From Acidobacteriota bacterium (GTDB taxonomy: Bacteria > Acidobacteriota > Holophagae > Holophagales > Holophagaceae), in NCBI GenBank assembly GCA_016192145.1, contig JACPUT010000011.1, positions 62,001 through 126,000 of the forward strand: a DNA stretch of 64,000 nt, read 5' to 3'. How positions within the stretch are numbered: the stretch's first letter is position 1; every line of letters begins with the position of its first letter. A model generated the notes under the pieces. It was not told the origin of the DNA. It ran no database searches and saw only the letters and a list, made by a program, of their open reading frames with translations. The position numbers were made by a program, and so were the translations under genes. Positions 17,771-51,092 of this stretch are shown here, piece after piece.

Positions 17771-17800
17771 GGTTCGAATCCGGGTGGGGCCATCACTGGG
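17771..17800 (+). repeat. Degenerate direct repeat of the tRNA 3' end
   Basis: The 30 bases 17771-17800 match 17623-17652 (T-loop to past the CCA end) at 27 of 30 positions: CA to GG in the T-stem and C to T in the CCA, so the T-stem no longer pairs fully. The 118 bases between hold the inverted T-arm, a CTGCCC/GGGCAG hairpin (17669-17684) and CCGG-rich repeats. This is the geometry of an integration-site duplication or a partial tRNA duplication. There is no integrase gene in the window. Confidence 0.75.
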
Positions 17801-17819
17801 GCTATTGGCTATGGACTTT

Positions 17820-17879
17820 GGGCTCTGGCTGACCTCGACCCATCCGAACAACCGAATGGGTCGAGGTCGGCCAGAGCCC
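17820..17879. terminator. Long hairpin between the tRNA locus and gcdH
   Basis: Arms of 24 bases (17820-17843 and 17856-17879, one G-T wobble) around a 12-base loop. It lies 20 bases beyond the stop of the minus-strand acyl-CoA dehydrogenase and downstream of the plus-strand tRNA, so it could end transcription from both sides. No clear T-run. Confidence 0.6.
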
Positions 17880-17898
17880 AGAGCCGAAAGCCCAGAGC

Positions 17899-19089
17899 CT
17901 ACCGGTAAGCCGGCAACCCCGTGACTTCCTGACCGATAATCAGGGTATGCATGTCGTGCGTCCCCTCATACGTGTACACGCTCTCGAGGTTGGCCATGTG
18001 CCGCATGACCGGGTACTCGTCCAGGATGCCGTTGGCGCCCAGGATTGTACGGGCCTTCCGGCAGATTTCCAGGGCCACATTCACGTTGTTCATCTTGGCC
18101 ATGGAGACCTGCGCGGGGGTGAACTTCTTGGCATCTTTGAGGCGACCCAGCTGGAGCACCAGGAGCTGGCCCTTGGTGAGCTCCGTGACCATCCAGGCCA
18201 GCTTCTCCTGCTGAAGCTGGTAGGCGGCGATGGGCTTGTCGAACTGGATGCGGTTCAGGGCGTAATCCAGGGCGCACTGGTAGGAGGCATCGGCGGCACC
18301 GAGGGCACCCCAGGCGATGCCGTAGCGGGCCTGGGTGAGGCAGCCGAGGGGGCCCTTGAGTCCCTTGACGTTGGGCAACAGGCTCTTGGCCTCGTCCACG
18401 ATCACATCCTCAAGCACGAGCTCGGAGGTGACGGAGGCGCGCAGGCTCCACTTGCCGTGGGTCTCGGGGGCGGAGAAGCCAGGAGTGCCCTTCTCCACGA
18501 GGAAGCCGCGGATGCCGTCCTCGGTCTGGGCCCACACGATGGCGACATCCGCGACGGTGCCGTTGGTGATCCACATCTTGGTGCCGTTGATGCGCCACTT
18601 GCCGCCGGGCTCCTTCACCGCCTTGGTGAGCATGCCGCCGGGGTTGGATCCGAAATCGGGCTCCGTGAGGCCGAAGCAACCGACGACCTCGCCTGCCGCG
18701 AGCTTGGGCAGCCAGTAGCGCTTCTGCTCTTCACTTCCGTAGGCGTAGATGGGCCACATGACCAGGGAGCCCTGCACGCTGCAGAAGGACCGGAGGCCCG
18801 AGTCACCGCGCTCCAGCTCGTACATGAGCAGGCCGTAGGCGACGTTTGAGAGGCCCGCGCAGCCGTATTCCTCGGGGAGGCTGGGGCCGTAGAAGCTCAG
18901 CTCACCCATCTTCTTGATGAGGTGGGCGGGGAAGGTCTGGTCCTGGGCGTGCTTTTCGATGATGGGAAGGACTTCCTTGTTCACGAAGTCCCGGGCCGCT
19001 TCGCGGACCATTTTCTCTTCATCCGACAACAGGCCTTCAAAGCCCATGTAGTCGGTGATGTGGTTGAAGGTGGCGTAGGCACCGGCCAT
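17899..19089 (-). CDS. gcdH: Acyl-CoA dehydrogenase, probably glutaryl-CoA dehydrogenase
   Basis: FAD-dependent dehydrogenase of 396 residues. The C-terminal YEGTHDMHTLIIGQEVTG carries the catalytic glutamate in the arrangement of glutaryl-CoA dehydrogenase, and ICRKARTILGANGILDEYPVMRH is the FAD/oligomer contact region. N-terminal segments LLSDEEKMVREAARDFV and GCFGLTEPDFGSNPGGM are family signatures. That enzyme oxidises and decarboxylates glutaryl-CoA to crotonyl-CoA in lysine/aromatic degradation. No other degradation genes or electron-transfer flavoprotein genes lie nearby, so the substrate rests on sequence pattern only. It is monocistronic. Confidence 0.82.
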   Translation of the reverse strand: MAGAYATFNHITDYMGFEGLLSDEEKMVREAARDFVNKEVLPIIEKHAQDQTFPAHLIKKMGELSFYGPSLPEEYGCAGLSNVAYGLLMYELERGDSGLRSFCSVQGSLVMWPIYAYGSEEQKRYWLPKLAAGEVVGCFGLTEPDFGSNPGGMLTKAVKEPGGKWRINGTKMWITNGTVADVAIVWAQTEDGIRGFLVEKGTPGFSAPETHGKWSLRASVTSELVLEDVIVDEAKSLLPNVKGLKGPLGCLTQARYGIAWGALGAADASYQCALDYALNRIQFDKPIAAYQLQQEKLAWMVTELTKGQLLVLQLGRLKDAKKFTPAQVSMAKMNNVNVALEICRKARTILGANGILDEYPVMRHMANLESVYTYEGTHDMHTLIIGQEVTGLPAYR

Positions 19090-26882: not shown

Positions 26883-26954
26883 CCGGTGATGAACAGTGAT
26901 GAACAGTGATGGCGATTCGAGCTTTTATCACTGTTCATCACTGTTCATCACTGG
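26883..26954. repeat. Inverted repeat of tandem GTGATGAACA units, after metG
   Basis: Arms of 28 bases (26883-26910 and 26927-26954, one mismatch), each nearly three copies of the decamer GTGATGAACA, around a 16-base loop. A-rich sequence on the left (26869-26882) reads as a T-rich tail after the hairpin on the minus strand, so it probably also terminates metG, which stops at 26965. The same unit forms the repeat at 44103-44231. Confidence 0.85.
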
Positions 26955-42835: not shown

Positions 42836-42913
42836 GGATCCCGCCTCCCAAATGTGAGTTCAGCCTATCGGGCTCCCGTGGCCTCGGGTCATCGGGAGGT
42901 AAAGCCTGGTTTG

Positions 42914-43002
42914 AACCGCGAATGGCGCGAATGAACGCGAATAAAGACCCAAGCTGGAATTGGCATGCCTTTCATTCGCGTGCATTCGCGTCATTCGCGG
43001 TT
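42914..43002. repeat. Inverted repeat of tandem CGCGAATGA units, after argC
   Basis: Arms at 42914-42945 and 42971-43002, about 29 of 32 bases complementary. Each contains three copies of a nonamer-like unit (CGCGAATG plus one or two bases), ending in AACCGCG at the outside. The loop contains GGAATTGGCATGCC. It lies 17 bases beyond the argC stop. Same family as 45348-45435. Confidence 0.85.
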
Positions 43003-43018
43003 AATACCAATTTGCGGC

Positions 43019-44071
43019 TTATCCGGGGTATCCCCCCGCGAACCACAACCCGGCCTTCTCGCTGAGGCCCAGGGCCAAGTTCATGTTCTGCACGGCTTGC
43101 CCGGCCATACCCTTGAGCAGGTTGTCCAAGGCCACGAAGATGGCGGCCTCCCGGCCTTCGACGGCGAAGCCGATGTCCACGAAGTTGGAGCCGGTGGCGG
43201 CGGCCACCTTGGGGGAGCCCTCCACGAGGCGCACGAAGGGACGGCCGGCGTAGGCTTCCTGGATGCGCTGTTGGAGCCCCACGCCATCGACACCCTCGGG
43301 CAGCTGGAATTGCAGGGTGGCGAAGATCCCCCGCACAATCGGAGCGCTATGGGGGATGAAGGCGACGGTGGTGTCCATCCCCAGCTGGCTGCAGAGTTGC
43401 TCCACCTCGCCCTGGTGCTGGTGGACCAGGGCCTTGTAGGCCCGGAAGTCCGTGGCCCGGGTGGGGTGGTGGGTGGTTTCGCTGGGGGCCATGCCCGAGC
43501 CCGAGGAACCCGTGATGGCGAAGGCGGAGACATGGGGGATGGCGAGGCCCGCCAGGGGCCGCAGTCCCAGCTGCAGGGCCGTGGCGAAGCAGCCGGGGTT
43601 GGCGATGCGTCGCTGCCCCTGCACGGCCTCGGGGAAGGCATCTGCGAGGCCATAGGTGAAGGTGCCCAGACCCGCGGGATTCGGGTGGCTCTGGCCGTAG
43701 TGCTTGGCGAAGGCTTCGGCGTCGGCCAACCGGAAATCGCCGCTGAGGTCGATGAGCGTGAGGCGATCCGTGAGGCCCGCCTCGGCCCAAGCCGATTCCA
43801 AGGTGGGCAGCTGCTTGGCCAACTCGCCGTGGGGCATGGCGGCGAAGCAGACGGGATGCTCCGACTGAGCCAGCCAGGCCCAATCGGGCGTGGCGTCGAA
43901 AGTGCCCTCCAGCAGACCCCGCAGGTTGGGATGGACCAAATGGAAGGGCTTGCTCGCGTGGTTGCGGGAGACGCCCCGCAGGCTCGAAACCTCGGGGTGG
44001 CCCGCCAGGAGCCGCAGCAGCTCGCCGCCCCCATAGCCGGAGGCGCCTAGGATCAAGGCTCGAATGGACAC
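43019..44071 (-). CDS. argC: N-acetyl-gamma-glutamyl-phosphate reductase
   Basis: Third step of arginine synthesis: NADPH-dependent reduction of N-acylglutamyl phosphate to the semialdehyde. 350 residues from GTG 44071 (GGAG five bases upstream). ALILGASGYGGGELLRLL is the Rossmann motif, NPGCFATALQL holds the catalytic Cys, and HPTRATDFRAYK plus HSAPIVRGIF complete the pattern. An in-frame start at 44110 adds residues before the Rossmann strand and is rejected. If the cluster uses succinylated intermediates, the acyl group would be succinyl. Confidence 0.94.
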   Translation of the reverse strand: MSIRALILGASGYGGGELLRLLAGHPEVSSLRGVSRNHASKPFHLVHPNLRGLLEGTFDATPDWAWLAQSEHPVCFAAMPHGELAKQLPTLESAWAEAGLTDRLTLIDLSGDFRLADAEAFAKHYGQSHPNPAGLGTFTYGLADAFPEAVQGQRRIANPGCFATALQLGLRPLAGLAIPHVSAFAITGSSGSGMAPSETTHHPTRATDFRAYKALVHQHQGEVEQLCSQLGMDTTVAFIPHSAPIVRGIFATLQFQLPEGVDGVGLQQRIQEAYAGRPFVRLVEGSPKVAAATGSNFVDIGFAVEGREAAIFVALDNLLKGMAGQAVQNMNLALGLSEKAGLWFAGGYPG

Positions 44072-44102
44072 GCGAACTCCGAGATACAGGATTGAAAGAT
44101 CA

Positions 44103-44231
44103 AAAGACAACCAGTGATGAACAGTGATGAACGGTGATAAAAGCCCGAATGCGGAGATGCGGATTCGGATGGGCGTAGTTTTTCATCACCGTTCATCCCT
44201 TCTTCATCACTGTTCATCACTGGTTGTCTTT
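44103..44231. repeat. Inverted repeat of GTGATGAACA units between the P-loop NTPase gene and argC
   Basis: Left arm 44103-44143 (AAAGACAACC, then GTGATGAACA units) and right arm 44177-44231, which matches except for an extra block of about 10 bases near 44195. The arms end in AAAGACAACC/GGTTGTCTTT. It shares its decamer and the GTGATAAAAGC edge with the repeat after metG. Confidence 0.8.
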
Positions 44232-44267
44232 GTCTTTTGTCTTTTGTCTCTGGCTTTTGTCTTTGGC
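44225..44267. repeat. Short tandem repeat of TTTGTCT/TTTTGTC units
   Basis: About 43 bases of heptad-octad repeats (TGTCTTTGTCTTTTGTCTTTTG and further slightly diverged units) directly before the stop codon of the P-loop NTPase gene, abutting the inverted repeat. Low complexity, of possible slippage origin. Confidence 0.75.
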
Positions 44268-44268
44268 C

Positions 44269-45324
44269 TTACGACGCCAAAACACCGGCGGCTCGGACCA
44301 GCCCCAACACCCGCTCCCCCAGCGCCGGACCGTTCGTCCGCGCATTCACGGCAGGCAGGCCGAGGTTGGCTTCCACAAAGCGCACGCCCACGGCGTTGTC
44401 CGTGGCGGGGCCCGTGAGCACGTCCACGGTGAGGCCATAGACCTCCAGGAGGGCCTGCACACCGCCGGCGGCGCCCACGGGGTCGTTGGCGCAGAAGAGG
44501 AAGGCCGCCGCCTGGCCCATGAGCTCCGCGTCGCCCAGGATGGCCTGCACGCCGTAGTCCCCCATGATGCCGTCGCCCGTCTCGGCCACGATGACATCCG
44601 CGCCCGTGGCCGCCAGCTCTGCGAAGATCGTCCGGGCCGAGGCCTGGGCCGTTTCCGGGGAAGAGGTGGTGACGCCGGTGTCCGTGAAGTCCAGGGCCCA
44701 TTCGGCCCCATAGTCCTTCATGCCCAGGATGTCCTTCTGCAGGCTCACGCCCGTGAGCTTGGCGCCGGCGACCTTGAGGCCCGCCTGGGCCAGCGCCCGG
44801 ATGACGGCGCAGGCGGCGGCGGTCTTGCCCGCGTTCATGCAGGTGCCCGCCACGTAGACCACGGGCACCTTGGGCGCGGATTCCCGGGTTTGCAGCGCCC
44901 TCATGCCGATGTGGGCCCGCTGGCCCTGTCGGCTCTGAAATTCGGGATAGACGAGCACCTGCCCCAGCACTTCCACTTCGAAGGGGGCGCCCACGTCGGG
45001 GTTGTGGGAGACGCAGCGTCCCAGGACGCCACCCAGGTTCAGGATGTTGATCCGATCCCCCAGCTGCACCCGCTCGGGCATGACGCCCTCGTACCCGTGG
45101 AGCGCGTTCCGGTGCCCCAGCGCGCCCACCACGATGTCCCCGGCGTGCACCACGGACATGCGGCCATGCACGTCCTCCAGGGTGTTGTAGCGGTTCTTGT
45201 CATTGAGCACCCGGGCGGCCAGCACGGTGCCCGGGCGCACCTCGATGTCCGCCGTGAGCGTGAGGGTCTTGGAAAGCTGGAGCCGCCGGGTGACGGAGGC
45301 GATCTTGTCGACGGTGATTCGCAT
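44269..45324 (-). CDS. P-loop NTPase of DUF1611/dethiobiotin-synthetase-like type
   Basis: 351 residues, not matched to a named enzyme. The N-terminal half (about 1-145) is beta-rich and includes RYNTLEDVHGRMSVVHAGDIVVGALGHRNAL. The C-terminal half opens with a P-loop VAGTCMNAGKTAAAC (near residue 158), then GLKVAGAKLTGVSLQKD, MKDYGAEWALDFTDTG and DVIVAETGDG, the order seen in BioD/DUF1611-like ATPases that carboxylate or activate small molecules. It sits between argG and argC, bounded by repeats on both sides. A link to arginine metabolism is guilt by association only. Confidence 0.65.
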   Translation of the reverse strand: MRITVDKIASVTRRLQLSKTLTLTADIEVRPGTVLAARVLNDKNRYNTLEDVHGRMSVVHAGDIVVGALGHRNALHGYEGVMPERVQLGDRINILNLGGVLGRCVSHNPDVGAPFEVEVLGQVLVYPEFQSRQGQRAHIGMRALQTRESAPKVPVVYVAGTCMNAGKTAAACAVIRALAQAGLKVAGAKLTGVSLQKDILGMKDYGAEWALDFTDTGVTTSSPETAQASARTIFAELAATGADVIVAETGDGIMGDYGVQAILGDAELMGQAAAFLFCANDPVGAAGGVQALLEVYGLTVDVLTGPATDNAVGVRFVEANLGLPAVNARTNGPALGERVLGLVRAAGVLAS

Positions 45325-45347
45325 GGGGGATCCGGAAGGAAGGGGTT

Positions 45348-45435
45348 AACCGCGAATGACGCGAATGTTCGCGAATGAAAACAAGCGGAATGAGTGGGCG
45401 TTTCTAATTCGCGCCCATTCGCGTCATTCGCGGTT
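45348..45435. repeat. Inverted repeat of CGCGAATGA units touching the argG stop
   Basis: Arms 45348-45378 and 45406-45435; outer ends AACCGCGAATGACGCGAATG match perfectly and the inner unit diverges. The right arm reaches the first base of the argG stop codon (45435-45437). Same nonamer family as the repeat after argC. Confidence 0.85.
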
Positions 45436-46625
45436 CAAAAAGCATTTGCCTGAGTCAGGGAACTGATCCGCTGGGCCACGCCGAAGACCTTGGCGAAGCC
45501 CGCGGCTTCTTCGCCGGTCCAGAGCTTGGTGCCTTCGCCATAGGCGGCGAGGTCGCTCATGAGGGCGAAGGGGGAGCGGGCGCCCACGGTGTGGAAGGCG
45601 TGGGGGCGCAGCACGAGGCGAACGTCGCCGGTGACCACGGTCTGGCTGCGCTCCAGGAAGGCCTCCAGATCCCTCGCCAGGGGATCGAAGAAGTGGCCCT
45701 CGTGAAGGAGGCCGCCGTAGAGGTTGCCGAGGCTCTCCTTCCAGAAGAGCTGCTTGCCGCTGAGCACCAGCTTCTCCAGTTCCCGGTGGGCCTGGATGAG
45801 CAGCAGGGCCGCGGGGGCTTCGAAGGCGATGCGGCCCTTGATGCCGAGGATCGTGTCGCCCAGGTGGTAGGCCCGACCGATCCCGTAGGCGTGCCCGAGC
45901 TCGTTCAGCCGAGCGATGAGCGGCACGGGATCCAGCCCTTCACCATCCAAGGCCGAGGGCACGCCTTCGGTGAAGGAGACGACGAGCTCCTTCACGGGCA
46001 GCGCGGCGTCCACGGGGCCGCCAGGCCAGGCGCCTTCCGGCAGGGCGTCCCAGGGGTTCAGGGTCTCCCGGCCGCCGATGCTGGTGCCCCACATGCCTTC
46101 ATTGACGGAATAGACGGCGGTCTTCGCGGGGAAGGTGAAGCCCTTTTCCTCCAGCCAGTCGATCTCCTGGGCCCGGCTCAGGGCCAGCTCCCGGATGGGC
46201 GTTCGCACGGTCAGCTGCGGCGCGAGGGCGGCGAAGGCCACGTCGAAGCGAACTTGGTCGTTGCCGGCGCCCGTGCTGCCGTGGGCCAGGGCCGTGGCGC
46301 CCAGCTCCGTGGCCACCTGCACGGCGAGCTCCGCCTGGCAGACCCGCTCCGCGCTCACGGAGAGCGGATAGGCCTGGCCCCGGAGCACGTTGCCGTAGAC
46401 GAGGAAGCGCAGGTAGCGGTCCCACAGCCGCTGCCGGCCATCCACCGTGCGGTGGGAGGCCACGCCCAGCTTCGCGGCCTGGGCCTCGATGCGGGCGAGC
46501 TCGGCGGTGCTGAAGCCGCCGGTGTCGATGGTGGCGGTGTGCACTTCGTAGCCCTGCTCCCGCAGCCAGAGGGCGCAAAAGGAGGTGTCGAGCCCGCCAC
46601 TGAAGGCCAGCAACAACTTAGTCAT
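45435..46625 (-). CDS. argG: Argininosuccinate synthase
   Basis: Joins citrulline and aspartate with ATP to form argininosuccinate; 396 residues. The PP-loop LAFSGGLDTSF opens the protein, followed by the citrulline/aspartate-binding segments AHGSTGAGNDQVRF and SVNEGMWGTSIGG, and the FNEFH-like late region GLLHEGHFFDPLARDLEAFL. The ATG at 46625 has GGGAG upstream; a longer in-frame start lies inside argH. The gene overlaps the argH stop by eight bases. Confidence 0.96.
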   Translation of the reverse strand: MTKLLLAFSGGLDTSFCALWLREQGYEVHTATIDTGGFSTAELARIEAQAAKLGVASHRTVDGRQRLWDRYLRFLVYGNVLRGQAYPLSVSAERVCQAELAVQVATELGATALAHGSTGAGNDQVRFDVAFAALAPQLTVRTPIRELALSRAQEIDWLEEKGFTFPAKTAVYSVNEGMWGTSIGGRETLNPWDALPEGAWPGGPVDAALPVKELVVSFTEGVPSALDGEGLDPVPLIARLNELGHAYGIGRAYHLGDTILGIKGRIAFEAPAALLLIQAHRELEKLVLSGKQLFWKESLGNLYGGLLHEGHFFDPLARDLEAFLERSQTVVTGDVRLVLRPHAFHTVGARSPFALMSDLAAYGEGTKLWTGEEAAGFAKVFGVAQRISSLTQANAF

Positions 46626-47991
46626 GGGCGTCTCCCATCGTGTCGAGATTCCAGGTTTCGAGTTCGGCGGATTCCAGATGGATGCGGCGGGACCGGATCC
46701 ACACCGCGCGAGCCTGGAGGTCCCGGCGAAGGCCCTCCAGGTCCAAGGCGCCGGGAGACCCGGGGGACTGGGCCGCGGGGCCGGCGAGGGGCTTGGCGAA
46801 GGTGCCCTCCGCGATCTCCTTCGCCACGGCCCCATAGGCCTCCCGGAAGGGTTGTCCCGCCAGGGCCCGGTCGCAGGCCGATTGGGTCGCGTGGAGTTCA
46901 GGCACGGCGCTCACCGCCTCCGCCAGGGAGAGCGGCTCCAGGCCGGGGACGACGTGCGTGAGCACCCGCAGCAGCTCCAGCGCGCCGGCACAGCCCTCCA
47001 TGAGCGGGGCCTTGAGGAGCTGGAAATCCCGGTGGTACCCGCCGCTGAGGCCCGAGGCGAGGGCGTCCAACCGGGCCGCCTGGCCCCGGAGTTCCCGGGC
47101 CTTGGCCCGCGCCAGCTCCAGCACGTCGGGATTCCGCTTTTGGGGCATGAGACTGCTGCCGGTGGTGAAGCCGACGGGCAGCCGGAGGAAGCCGAACTCC
47201 TCGGTGCTGAAGAGCAGCGCGTCTTGGCAGAAACGCTCCAAAGCGAGGCCCAGGCTGCCCAGCGCGTGAAGGAACGCGGCCTCCGTGCGGCCCCGGCTCA
47301 GCTGGACCTCCGCGGCATTGCGGTGGAGCCGCGTGAACCCGAGCAACCGGGCGGTGAACTCCCGGTCCAACGGGAGGGGCACGCCATAGCCCGCGCCACT
47401 GCCGAGGGGGCACCGGTCCAGCCGATGCCACAGGGATTCCACGGCCTCCACTTCCTCCAGCAACGCCTCGGCGTGGGCGGAGGCCCACTGGGCCCAGGAG
47501 CTGGGCATGGCCCGTCGCAGGTGGGTGTAGCCGGGAAGCGCCCCGGGGTGGGCCTCGGCGAACGCGAACAGGGCGTTCGCCAGGGCCAGGCTTTCCGCCT
47601 CCACGGCGAGCAGCTGCTCCCGCATCCACAGGCGCAGGGCCGTGGCCACCTGATCGTTGCGGGACCGGCCCGCGTGGATCCGCTGACCGGGCGCTCCGAG
47701 CCGTGTCGTGAGTTCCGCTTCCAAGAGCGTGTGACCGTCCTCCTGTTCGAGCTGGATCACGAGGCCCCCGGCTCGGGCCTGGGCCTGGAGCTGCTTCAAT
47801 TCGGCCACGAGGGCCCGGGCATCTTCCAATTCCAGCAATCCGGCGCGGTGCAGGGTTCGCGCATGGGCCGCGCTGCCCCAGGCGTCGAAGGGCAGGAGCT
47901 GAAGGTCCAGCTCCGGATCGCGGCCCACGGTGAAGGCGTGGACGACCTGGTCCAGGGGAAGGTCCTTCGCCCACAGTTGCGGCTTAGCCAT
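46618..47991 (-). CDS. argH: Argininosuccinate lyase
   Basis: Last step of arginine synthesis: splits argininosuccinate to arginine and fumarate. 457 residues with the fumarase/aspartase superfamily signature GSSLMPQKRNPD (catalytic Ser loop), HAGRSRNDQVATALRLWMRE and the PLGSGAGYGVPL segment. It overlaps the upstream deacylase gene and downstream argG by eight bases each, so it is embedded in one operon. Confidence 0.96.
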   Translation of the reverse strand: MAKPQLWAKDLPLDQVVHAFTVGRDPELDLQLLPFDAWGSAAHARTLHRAGLLELEDARALVAELKQLQAQARAGGLVIQLEQEDGHTLLEAELTTRLGAPGQRIHAGRSRNDQVATALRLWMREQLLAVEAESLALANALFAFAEAHPGALPGYTHLRRAMPSSWAQWASAHAEALLEEVEAVESLWHRLDRCPLGSGAGYGVPLPLDREFTARLLGFTRLHRNAAEVQLSRGRTEAAFLHALGSLGLALERFCQDALLFSTEEFGFLRLPVGFTTGSSLMPQKRNPDVLELARAKARELRGQAARLDALASGLSGGYHRDFQLLKAPLMEGCAGALELLRVLTHVVPGLEPLSLAEAVSAVPELHATQSACDRALAGQPFREAYGAVAKEIAEGTFAKPLAGPAAQSPGSPGALDLEGLRRDLQARAVWIRSRRIHLESAELETWNLDTMGDAHD

Positions 47992-49051
47992 GGACCACCT
48001 CCCGGGCGGCCAAGGCCAAATAGGTGGGGATCACGGCCTGGTAGAAGGCCACACCGGCCTCCAGCTCCGCCTTGGAAATCCACTCGTCGGGCCGGTGGCT
48101 CCGATGGGTGTCGCCAGGTCCCACCTTCACGGCGGGAATGTCGCCGAGGAAGGCCCAATCGCTGGTGGTGGCGCTGCCCACGGGGGAGGCCTTGCCCGCA
48201 GCCTTCAGCGCCGCCTTCACGATGGGATGCGTGGGATCCGTGGCCTTGGGGTGATACCGGGCGCTGTGCACCTTCACTTCCCCCTCCAGCTCCGCGGCGA
48301 AGGACTGGGCCAGCTCGGCGTGATCGAGGTTGGGCGTGGTGCGCAGGTCCACGAAGAGGGTGCAGGCGTCGGGCACCTGGTTGCGGGCCAGCCCCCCCTC
48401 CACCTGCGTCACCTGGGCCCGGGTCTCGCCGAGCAGCGGGTGGGGCTCGAAGCGGAGTTGCGCGAGCTTCGTGATGTCCTTGGCGGCCTTGTGGATGGCG
48501 TTGTCGCCCAGGTGGGCGTGGGCCACGTGAGCTCCCTCCCCATGGGCGATCACCCTCAGCAGCAGCATGCCCCGCTGGGCGGCGCAGACCTGCAGGCCCG
48601 TGGGCTCGCCCACGATGGCGGCATCCAGGGGGCCCAGCTGATCAAGGATGGTGGCGAGGCCCTGCCCGCCCGTCTCCTCTTCGGCCGTGAGGGCGAGGAC
48701 GACAGTGCCTTCGGCGGGAGGCGTCTGCAGCAGCTGCCGGAAAGCCAGCAGCATGGCCGTGACGCAGCCCTTGGCATCGTTGGCGCCGAGGCCCACGAGG
48801 CGCTCGCCCTGCCACACGGGGACCTGGGGATCGCTGGACCACCCGGCGCAGGGTGGCACCGTATCGAGGTGGGAATTCAACAGGAGGCGCGGCGCCCCCT
48901 GCCCCACTTCGGCCCAGAGGTTGTGGCCCTGCCGCCGAACGGGGGCGCCCCAGGATTCCAGGAGGGCCTGCACGGTATTGGCGATGGCCGCCTCGTGGCC
49001 GGAGACGCTGGGCAGGGCCACGAGTTCGTGGAGGAGTTCCGCGGGCGTCAT
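47984..49051 (-). CDS. argE: ArgE-like M20 deacylase (N-acylcitrulline/acylornithine deacetylase)
   Basis: Zinc M20 amidohydrolase of 355 residues. Ligands and catalytic residues: LNSHLDTVPP (His and Asp), GANDAKGCV (bridging Asp), LTAEEETGG (catalytic Glu/Glu), and VGPGDTHRSHRPDE (last His). An ArgE-type enzyme in this cluster removes the acyl group; because the adjacent transcarbamylase looks specific for N-acylornithine, the likely substrate is N-acylcitrulline, as in Xanthomonas. Substrate is inference. It overlaps argB by four bases (ATGA). Confidence 0.88.
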   Translation of the reverse strand: MTPAELLHELVALPSVSGHEAAIANTVQALLESWGAPVRRQGHNLWAEVGQGAPRLLLNSHLDTVPPCAGWSSDPQVPVWQGERLVGLGANDAKGCVTAMLLAFRQLLQTPPAEGTVVLALTAEEETGGQGLATILDQLGPLDAAIVGEPTGLQVCAAQRGMLLLRVIAHGEGAHVAHAHLGDNAIHKAAKDITKLAQLRFEPHPLLGETRAQVTQVEGGLARNQVPDACTLFVDLRTTPNLDHAELAQSFAAELEGEVKVHSARYHPKATDPTHPIVKAALKAAGKASPVGSATTSDWAFLGDIPAVKVGPGDTHRSHRPDEWISKAELEAGVAFYQAVIPTYLALAAREVVHG

Positions 49052-49941
49052 GGCGCCACCCCCGCCGCGGCGGCGGGCGCCGCCTGGATCATGGTGCCGC
49101 TGCCTTCGTTGGTGAAGACCTCCACGAGCAGCGCTTCCGGGGTAAACCCCGATACGAGGTGTACGCTGTGCACGCCCGCGGCGAGGGCGGCCTTCACGGC
49201 GGCCAGCTTGGGCTTCATGCCGCCGCCGATGGCGCCCTCCTGTTCCAGCTCCGTGAGTTCCTGGGGCGTGGCGAAGGGCACGATGGACGTGGGCTGATCC
49301 ACCTTCCGCAGGAGGCCGGGGACGCCGAGGAGGAAGACCAACTTCTCGGCGCCGAGGGCGCCCGCCAGGGCGGCGGCCACGGTATCGGCGTTGGTGTTGT
49401 AGATCTGCCCCGCGTCGTCGGCGCTGAGGGGCGCCACCACGGGCAGGAAGCCGCCCTCCAGCAGGTGCTGGATCACCTTGGGATCCACGGCCTCCAGATC
49501 GCCCACGAAGCCGAAGTCCACGGCCTCGCCTTCGATAGTCTGGGGCGCCCGCTTGTGGGCCTTGAGCAGGCCCGCGTCCACGCCGCTGAGGCCCACGGGG
49601 GAAAGCCCGGCTTTGCCGAGCGCCGCCAGGAAGGTGGTGTGGGCTTCGCCGGCGAAGGCCATGATGGCGGCCCGCAGCGTCGCGGCATCCGTCACCCGCC
49701 GCCCGGCAACCTTCGTCACGGGCAGGCCCAGCTGGACGCTGAGCCGGTCCAGCCCCGCGCCGCCCCCATGCACGAGCACGAGCCGGATGCCGAGGTTCCA
49801 CAACAGGGCCACTTGCTCGCACACCGATGCGCAGGCGGTGGCATCCTCCAGCACTTCGCCACCCACCTTCACGACGAAGGTCTGGTCGCGGAACTGGCGG
49901 AGGTAGGGGGCGGCGGCGCGAAGGGACATGAGGGCGTTCAT
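49048..49941 (-). CDS. argB: Acetylglutamate kinase
   Basis: Second step of the pathway, phosphorylating N-acylglutamate; 297 residues of the amino-acid kinase fold. Motifs: VVKVGGEVL (phosphate loop), VLVHGGGAG, and YNTNADTVAAALAGALGAEKLVFL. The N-terminal helix before the first strand (AAPYLRQFRDQTF) resembles the one in arginine-inhibited kinases, so feedback inhibition is plausible. HGGGAGLD replaces the usual HGGGPQI. ATG at 49941, GGAG six bases upstream. It has no fused GNAT domain, unlike the bifunctional Xanthomonas enzyme. Confidence 0.92.
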   Translation of the reverse strand: MNALMSLRAAAPYLRQFRDQTFVVKVGGEVLEDATACASVCEQVALLWNLGIRLVLVHGGGAGLDRLSVQLGLPVTKVAGRRVTDAATLRAAIMAFAGEAHTTFLAALGKAGLSPVGLSGVDAGLLKAHKRAPQTIEGEAVDFGFVGDLEAVDPKVIQHLLEGGFLPVVAPLSADDAGQIYNTNADTVAAALAGALGAEKLVFLLGVPGLLRKVDQPTSIVPFATPQELTELEQEGAIGGGMKPKLAAVKAALAAGVHSVHLVSGFTPEALLVEVFTNEGSGTMIQAAPAAAAGVAP

Positions 49942-49965
49942 TGGGTACTCCAGGGTGAAAAGGAA

Positions 49966-50104
49966 GAACGCGGAGGGCGCGGAGATTCGCGGAGGGACGC
50001 GGAGGAAAAGACGAGGAAAAGGAAGAGGTTGCAAAGAGGGGGAGCGGTGCGGCCCTTTCAGCTTTTCTCCGCGTTCTCCGCGCCCCTCCGCGAACTCCGC
50101 GTTC
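49966..50104. repeat. Inverted repeat of CGCGGAG units touching the argF' stop
   Basis: Arms 49966-50010 and 50062-50104 are built of four units of CGCGGAGNN (for example CGCGGAGTT, CGCGGAGGG) and end in GAACGCG outside and GAAAAG inside. The right arm overlaps the first base pair of the argF' stop (50103-50105). The loop is about 50 bases, purine-rich on its left side. A third unit family, distinct from CGCGAATGA and GTGATGAACA. Confidence 0.85.
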
Positions 50105-51092
50105 AGCCCTTGGTTCCGATGAGCTGATGCAGCAAAGCCCGCTGCACGTGGAAGCGGTTCTCGGCCTCATCCACCACGCGGCTGCGGGGGCCGTCGAGGA
50201 TGGCGTCGGCCACTTCGAGGTTCCGGCGCGTGGGCAGGCAGTGGAGGAAGATGCCGTCCTTGTCGAGGAGGTCCATCTGGGCCGCGCCGGGCATCCAGCT
50301 CTCCTGCCTCACTTCGCCGCCGGGACCGTCCGTGGCGGGCCCCCAGGCCTTGGCGTAGAGGACGGCGGAGCCCTCCAGCGCGGCGTTCTGATCGTTCGTG
50401 TACTCCACACTGCCGCCGGTGGCCGCGGCGAAGGCTTCCGCCTCCGCCCGCACCTCGGGCCGCAGCTCGAAGCCCTTGGGGTGGGCAACCCGCACGTGGC
50501 AGCCGGCGGCGGCGGCGGTGAGGAGGAAGGAGTTGGGCACGGCCTTGGGGAGGGGCTTCACGTGGGGCGCCCAGGTGAGCGTGACGGGCAGGCCCTTCGT
50601 CTTCTGGAAGGTCTCCTGCACCGTGAGCAGGTCCGCGAGGCCCTGACAGGGGTGCTCCCGGGCGCTCTCCATGGAGATGACGGGCACCGTGGCGTAGGTG
50701 CGGAAGGCGCTCATGACGGGATCCAGGTGGTCGGCCGCATCATCCTTGCCCTCGGCGAAGGTCCGCACGGCCAGTGCATCCACGTAGCGGCTGAGCACGG
50801 GCACGGCTTCCTTCACGTGCTCGGCCCGATCGCCATCCATGACGACGCCGTCCCGGTCCTCCAGCTTCCACACGCCGTTGCCCACCTCGAGCACCACGGC
50901 GCTGCCGCCGCCCCGGGCCATGACGGCCTCGAAGCTGGCCCGGGTCCGCAGGGAGGGGTTGAAGAAGACCATGCCCAGGAGCTTGTCCGCGAGGTGCTTA
51001 CCGGGGCTGGAGCGCTTCCAGGCCTCGGCCAGGTTGAGGATCCGGGCGACGCCTTCGGGGCCGAGGTCCTGGATGGAGGTGAAGTGCTGCAT
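50103..51092 (-). CDS. argF': N-acetyl/N-succinylornithine carbamoyltransferase
   Basis: 329 residues of the carbamoyltransferase fold. FFNPSLRTRASFE binds carbamoyl phosphate; HCLPTRRN is the HCLP loop. Features of the acylornithine subfamily are clear: W75 in GVWKLE, the VMDGD..EH block, and TWAPHVKPLPKAVPNSF, almost identical in layout to Bacteroides succinylornithine transcarbamylase. Ordinary ornithine transcarbamylases lack these. At the position that selects the substrate (Glu92 in the Xanthomonas acetylornithine enzyme, Pro90 in Bacteroides), this protein has Ala90. Product would be N-acylcitrulline. Two bases separate it from argD. Confidence 0.9.
   Translation of the reverse strand: MQHFTSIQDLGPEGVARILNLAEAWKRSSPGKHLADKLLGMVFFNPSLRTRASFEAVMARGGGSAVVLEVGNGVWKLEDRDGVVMDGDRAEHVKEAVPVLSRYVDALAVRTFAEGKDDAADHLDPVMSAFRTYATVPVISMESAREHPCQGLADLLTVQETFQKTKGLPVTLTWAPHVKPLPKAVPNSFLLTAAAAGCHVRVAHPKGFELRPEVRAEAEAFAAATGGSVEYTNDQNAALEGSAVLYAKAWGPATDGPGGEVRQESWMPGAAQMDLLDKDGIFLHCLPTRRNLEVADAILDGPRSRVVDEAENRFHVQRALLHQLIGTKG

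Follow-up and report, generated by a model that had tools for sequence, protein, structure and literature searches.

Four inverted repeats in the arginine operon of a Holophagaceae bacterium as probable gene-less copies of a small mobile hairpin class with a nuclease gene

The DNA analyzed here, the window, was a stretch of 64,000 nucleotides from an Acidobacteriota bacterium of the family Holophagaceae (GCA_016192145.1, contig JACPUT010000011.1, positions 62,001-126,000, forward strand), and its arginine (arg) operon holds four long inverted repeats. These repeats are probably gene-less copies, comparable to miniature inverted-repeat transposable elements (MITEs), of a small mobile hairpin class whose full form codes for a nuclease and which is tolerated at the 3' ends of genes. 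The class is apparently widespread and so far undescribed. Direct support was provided by the anatomy of the elements, their dispersal, their presence and absence at orthologous sites, the association of a gene with the arms, one internal-deletion intermediate, and the division of the word lengths according to the gene.

The genes of the operon lie on the minus strand in the order argD, argF', argB, argE-like, argH, argG, P-loop NTPase, argC and aminotransferase, with repeats between argF' and argB, argG and the NTPase gene, the NTPase gene and argC, and argC and the aminotransferase gene. An earlier note on this DNA had reported long inverted repeats after argC, the P-loop NTPase gene, argG and argF', and all four (4/4) were found at these junctions. 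The elements and the genes preceding them were the following:

42914-43002, gene-less element of word family A (CGCGAATG three times, inverted to three), after argC; arms 42907-42945/42971-43009; RNA fold z -8.1
44109-44225, family B element lacking a gene (GTGATGAACA words), in the NTPase-argC junction; perfect arms of 29 nt at 44103-44131/44203-44231; RNA fold z -11.3
45348-45435, family A element lacking a gene, in the argG-NTPase junction, reaching the argG stop; RNA fold z -9.0
49966-50104, family C element lacking a gene (CGCGGAGNN words), in the argF'-argB junction, overlapping the argF' stop; RNA fold z -7.9
43019-44071, minus strand, argC; open reading frame and codon-usage call, named from its translation
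44269-45324, minus strand, P-loop NTPase gene, the anchor for the site comparison; open reading frame
45435-46625, minus strand, argG; open reading frame and codon-usage call, named from its translation
50103-51092, minus strand, argF'; open reading frame and codon-usage call, named from its translation

The inverted repeats span 42907-43009 and 45348-45435 (CGCGAATG words), 44103-44231 (GTGATGAACA) and 49959-50111 (CGCGGAGNN). As also described in the note, two of them extend as far as the stop codon of the gene before them, at 45435 for argG and at 50103 for argF'; the remaining two start about 9 and 37 nt past it. Family A has the structure AACCGCGAATGACGCGAATGNNCGCGAAT, loop, ATTCGCGNNNATTCGCGTCATTCGCGGTT, and family B the structure AACCRGTGATGAACAGTGATGAACRGTGATGR, loop and inverse, frequently with A-rich and T-rich flanks. 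The folding energies of the four repeats as RNA lay between -52 and -75 kcal/mol, with z values of -7.9 to -11.3, and no shuffled sequence folded equally well. The only known RNA families detected in the window were two tRNAs.

The search of the whole 3.8 Mb genome, which the earlier note had proposed, showed that the units are not confined to the operon: the half-arm of family A (CGCGAATGNCGCGAATG) was found 49 times and that of family B (GTGATGAACNGTGATGAA) 61 times, and the reversed control patterns gave no matches (0). A strict triple CGCGGAG pattern had no match in the genome, and an unbiased scan for any hairpin was used instead, revealing two more CGCGGAG elements. The genome statistics are based on 854 kb of the genome, sampled as stretches, and placements on a simple codon-usage gene caller written for the analysis, which reproduces the arg genes. 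Altogether at least 13 word families of one architecture were present in the 854 kb: CGCGAATGA, GTGATGAACA, CGCGGAG, CGCGAAG, CGCAGAG, CACCAAG, GAGATGAACA, CACAGAG, CACGAAG and ACAGGATGA, as well as the 7-bp words GGGCTCT, GGTCCTT and GGAGACT. The note had distinguished three families within one operon; these three are present, but they belong to a larger set distributed across many intergenic spaces. The tandem-arm filter left 55 elements, or 64 per Mb, of which 50 were intergenic against an expectation of 7%. The flanking genes of the intergenic elements were co-oriented in 31 cases, convergent in 15 and divergent in four, the co-oriented cases being situated at a median of 9 nt past the upstream stop codon and 40 nt ahead of the next start. 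Family B included four copies at four loci with near-identical loop and arms, as expected of recent copies. This family is amplified in the genome studied, each of the other 76 genomes of the bacterial family having only 0 to 6 half-arm matches.

Reading outward from A arms with long loops revealed a gene of the GxxExxY family (PF13366, TIGR04256; E 8e-41, score above the curated cut-off). Four of the five GxxExxY genes of the genome are located between inverted arms (A, an A variant, ACAGGATGA and CGCGGAG-like); next to the remaining one lies a complete family B hairpin. As in MITEs, the ends are thus held in common with a gene-bearing element, GxxExxY genes of the same genome being flanked by arms of family A, of family M and of a C-like type. 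The word families form the terminal arrays of units that, when complete, carry their own gene, a unifying fact missed by the view of the note, according to which recombination might have generated unrelated families. An exact A 20-mer, AACCGCGAATGACGCGAATG, occurred in 93 stretches of the GTDB contigs, with hosts in Acidobacteriota, Planctomycetota, Verrucomicrobiota, Armatimonadota, Bacteroidota, Lentisphaerae, Calditrichota, Nitrospirae, Desulfobacterales and Clostridiales. PF13366 was present in all 17 tested genomes with this 20-mer (17/17) versus 3/14 control genomes. In other lineages 21 of the 27 GxxExxY genes had flanking word arrays in inverted orientation that exceeded the 99th percentile of shuffled sequences, the words being nearly always different, and as a control only one of 740 sample genes of the own genome passed the strict arm criterion, this being itself a GxxExxY gene.

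The alignment of the GxxExxY proteins retains G-x-x-E-x-x-Y, D, E-x-K and Q-x-x-x-Y, with D67, K79, Q91 and Y95 invariant and E77 nearly so. The predicted structure (predicted local distance difference test score 91) had its nearest matches in LHK-Exo, lambda exonuclease and the Cas4-like SSO0001, and the protein is accordingly predicted to be a minimal RecB/Cas4-like PD-(D/E)XK nuclease domain with its catalytic residues. No GxxExxY relative was found in phage records, no match in a defence-system library, and no convincing relative among solved structures by sequence search. The open literature yielded no function or mobile context for GxxExxY, the name occurring only in unrelated papers, and nothing was found on the word strings themselves.

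The comparison of occupied and empty sites in relatives, also suggested in the note, showed that the position of the repeats is not conserved. Across 27 Holophagaceae genomes the argG-NTPase and NTPase-argC junctions were either compact, often with overlapping ATGA, or contained hairpins of other words: CGCAGAG in G005, CACAGATT in G034, G036, G020 and G011, CGCAGATG in G009 and G030, and CGCCAAG or CACCAAG in several genomes. Over 186 kb the Geothrix genomes G005 and G014 share 94.4% identity; in the arg operon each has one element absent from the other. A CACCAAG hairpin is inserted in G009 relative to G014, its boundaries being the outer ends of the arms (ACCACC..GGTGGT). At the compact sites with ATGA overlap the change may have been either an insertion or an exact loss.

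At the purH-alaS junction, the genome studied (G000) and the relatives G010 and G032 carry a GxxExxY gene between A arms, and G056 carries one between other arms. In G055 the A arms have been kept and the first codons of the GxxExxY gene are fused to the last, i.e. the gene has been deleted internally. This copy is a gene-less derivative in the making, and it provides the internal deletion of a gene-bearing form that is typical of MITEs. The other genomes have a hairpin at this site that is either made of CACCAAG words or unrelated. A different, GC-rich hairpin (CCGGGGGTTCCGCGCT..CCCCCGG) was present here in several Geothrix genomes (G016, G046, G035, G020, G005, G014 and G051). The mobile nature of the repeats, put forward in the earlier note, is supported by the dispersed families, the occupied versus empty orthologous sites, the insertions or deletions of whole units between close relatives, and the gene-carrying full copies.

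Also a second gene was found between arms of this kind. Both S23 (PF05635) genes of the own genome are situated between arms of 7-bp words, and 19 of the 25 S23 genes in genomes holding the A 20-mer have inverted word arms. The period of the S23 arms was 7 in 16/19 and 8 in 3/19, whereas that of the GxxExxY arms ranged from 8 to 12, mostly 9-10, and was never 7 (0/25 vs 16/19, Fisher p 2e-9). Among plasmid records, significant heptamer arms were detected in 7/8 S23 genes, mostly from cyanobacteria. Within the GxxExxY units word similarity increased with protein relatedness (Mantel rho about 0.14, p about 0.01), and 19 of the 21 nearest-neighbour word comparisons were above the mean. The division of the period by gene, together with the similarity of proteins and words, points to a gene product that recognizes its own words; the latter similarity would equally follow from common descent of gene and arms. 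Each word family probably acts as an end-signature specific to one nuclease lineage.

In the reading proposed, a full unit of about 450 bp consists of about three tandem words of 8-10 bp, the GxxExxY gene coding for the predicted minimal PD-(D/E)XK nuclease, and the same array inverted. Loss of the gene would leave a hairpin of 80-150 bp, with such gene-less hairpins heavily outnumbering the full units. The units would enter or leave intergenic sites whole, mostly just past the stop codons of co-oriented genes, where they would be tolerated, and a parallel class combines 7-bp words with the S23 four-helix-bundle gene. We infer the nuclease to be the driver of mobility: it would recognize its own words and drive copying in cis and trans, perhaps via a single-stranded hairpin intermediate. 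A hairpin within the operon mRNA might be cut by RNase III, like the intervening sequence (IVS) of the 23S rRNA.

Several observations weigh against this interpretation. The sites were sampled partially, the arg junctions being read in 27 of the 77 genomes of the bacterial family (own genome included) and purH-alaS in 30 of the 77. No movement of the elements was observed in this analysis, and no clear target-site duplication was detected at the compared insertion sites, where the spacers have diverged. The gene pair of family B lies beside or between whole hairpins and not plainly within one. The fraction of flanked GxxExxY genes in other lineages (21/27) may be inflated, since these genes were picked from genomes with the A 20-mer, and in an independent set of eight plasmid records the GxxExxY arms were significant in only 2/8. 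The correlation between words and proteins is weak (rho about 0.14), and GxxExxY could be cargo.

The hairpins might instead be selected operon punctuation, i.e. attenuators, terminators or 3'-end protectors, with sequences that resemble each other through copying of the structure between genes. The very strong RNA folding, the location just past stop codons, the A- and T-rich flanks of family B and the excess of convergent over divergent spaces (15 vs 4; p 0.03 when compared with all gene pairs) fit this explanation. Nevertheless, the junctions are free of repeats in many relatives whose gene order is identical, mirrored variable spacer positions pair at the rate expected from composition (31 A elements), a pattern scan revealed no terminator-like site at the repeats, and this explanation does not account for a nuclease gene enclosed by the arms. 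The proposal of the earlier note that the repeats punctuate the mRNA and set gene output therefore found no support as a selected role; an effect of the hairpins on mRNA processing is possible. Selected regulation is unlikely, and less likely than a mobile hairpin family with its own small gene. An origin of the word arrays in a host process of slippage and inverted duplication, with the GxxExxY and S23 genes as passengers inserting into them, would suit the variation of words from copy to copy and the snap-back core of some elements (J and K families), which repeats the left half in inverted form. It appears rather improbable, as the arms sit at both edges of the gene, the word period depends on the gene, one relative keeps the arms after internal gene deletion, related proteins go with related words, and one and the same 20-mer is shared by many phyla.

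The short, dispersed, inverted intergenic repeats and their rare larger partners also resemble the pairs of repetitive extragenic palindromic (REP) doublets and REP-associated tyrosine transposases (REPIN/RAYT) described in PMC3116915, or MITEs of an ordinary resident insertion sequence. Matches to PF01797 (Y1, RAYT-type) numbered 0 in the own genome, with 5/14 control genomes positive, and the arms consist of non-palindromic words in direct tandem order, not of imperfect REP palindromes. The resident insertion sequence has different ends (CCGGACACTAG), and it adjoins family B words instead of ending in them. An origin of either kind is very unlikely.

This insertion sequence was located at nine contig ends of the own genome, namely C3 and C5 (ends), C7 (start), C8 (both), and C10, C11, C13 and C19 (starts; loci L035, L052, L056 and L377-L390), at eight of the nine directly beside family B words (GTGATGAA). 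It looks as if the family B word array were its target; IS1272 is known to replace inverted repeats (PMC5678879). Some family B arrays are inside-out, the words facing outward with a T-rich/A-rich spacer (C18:112334-112445 in L094, C18:264818-264932 in L102, C5:85679-85749 in L040 and C13:37834-37937 in G000), and the one in L094 is nested within a hairpin of GAGATGAAC words. An opposite marking of the family B ends (one A, one G) was seen in 8/8 strict copies but in 12/16 of a lenient set (p 0.08) and was not relied on. In a Desulfobacterales lineage (HSG2; L113, L114, L117, L128, L187 and L199) A-type arms belong to a near-identical amplified family, about 200 bp long and with extra common flanks (gatttaggggaggctccg), and in an uncultured Bacteroidales (L133) AACCGCGAATRACGCGAATG units are densely arrayed at a spacing of about 38 bp over a few hundred bases. 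Outside the arg operon, the hairpin scan detected two further elements in the window:

26886-26951, further family B element
17800-17899, element of 7-bp words (GGGCTCT/GGGCTTT) of the S23-type class, with the core GGCTGACCTCGACCCATCC

The latter and the J and K families of the own genome (e.g. L100:15067-15153) have a common core, GGCTGAGTTCGACCCAT, together with its own inverted copy, with differing arm words, which suggests snap-back copying. A related core runs into an S23 gene in L238.

The elements might, more tentatively, represent a new superfamily of mobile elements without a DDE, tyrosine or serine transposase, in which a minimal nuclease resembling lambda exonuclease and Cas4 (class I) or a four-helix bundle of the S23 type (class II) acts on hairpin-forming arrays of short words; it would occur in at least nine phyla and account for the heptamer repeats of cyanobacteria, of the short tandemly repeated repetitive (STRR) type, and of Xanthomonas. 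Such repeats, including the GGGAATC pairs of Xanthomonas, have long been without a known maker, and there are now candidate genes, GxxExxY for words of 8-10 bp and S23 for those of 7 bp. The reading offers a reason for the single GxxExxY and 'four helix bundle' genes met amid operon genes, describes what may be a very small nuclease-based mobile system, and cautions against taking such hairpins as conserved operon regulation.

Among known systems, REPIN-RAYT genomes contain numerous short, inverted units that are non-autonomous, alongside a few partners that carry a gene. The genome studied is similar in combining many small gene-less units with few gene-bearing partners, but its arms are tandem words instead of REP palindromes and it has no Y1 transposase. 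TIGR04256/PF13366 is the same protein family as the partner gene. Tandem 7-bp words are characteristic also of the cyanobacterial STRR sequences. The nearest known counterpart is the IVS in the 23S rRNA of Coxiella burnetii, of about 430 bp, in which one small gene, S23p, lies in a hairpin with tandem heptamers (GACAGAT three times) ahead of it; this IVS is patchy in distribution, horizontally acquired, termed selfish, and removed from the RNA by RNase III (PMC4990558). It resembles the full unit of about 450 bp in its size and in having a small gene in a hairpin with tandem words. The IVS, however, lies within the 23S rRNA and carries S23, whereas the arg elements are situated between protein genes, have words of 9-10 bp, and have gene-bearing relatives that encode a PD-(D/E)XK nuclease; S23 in a heptamer hairpin is absent from the arg elements and present in the parallel 7-bp class. 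No paper was found in the open literature that ties the IVS or the Xanthomonas heptamer pairs to GxxExxY. The GGGAATC heptamers of Xanthomonas often form inverted pairs between co-oriented genes within 50 bp of stop codons, heptamers are known from Nostoc as well (PMC4692102), and the TAACTGA repeats of Beggiatoaceae are tandem 7-bp words (PMC4679880). These repeats resemble the 7-bp class in their tandem words and, for Xanthomonas, in placement; PMC4692102 and PMC4679880 mention no S23 gene, whereas here heptamers flank S23 in 7/8 plasmid cases, mostly cyanobacterial.

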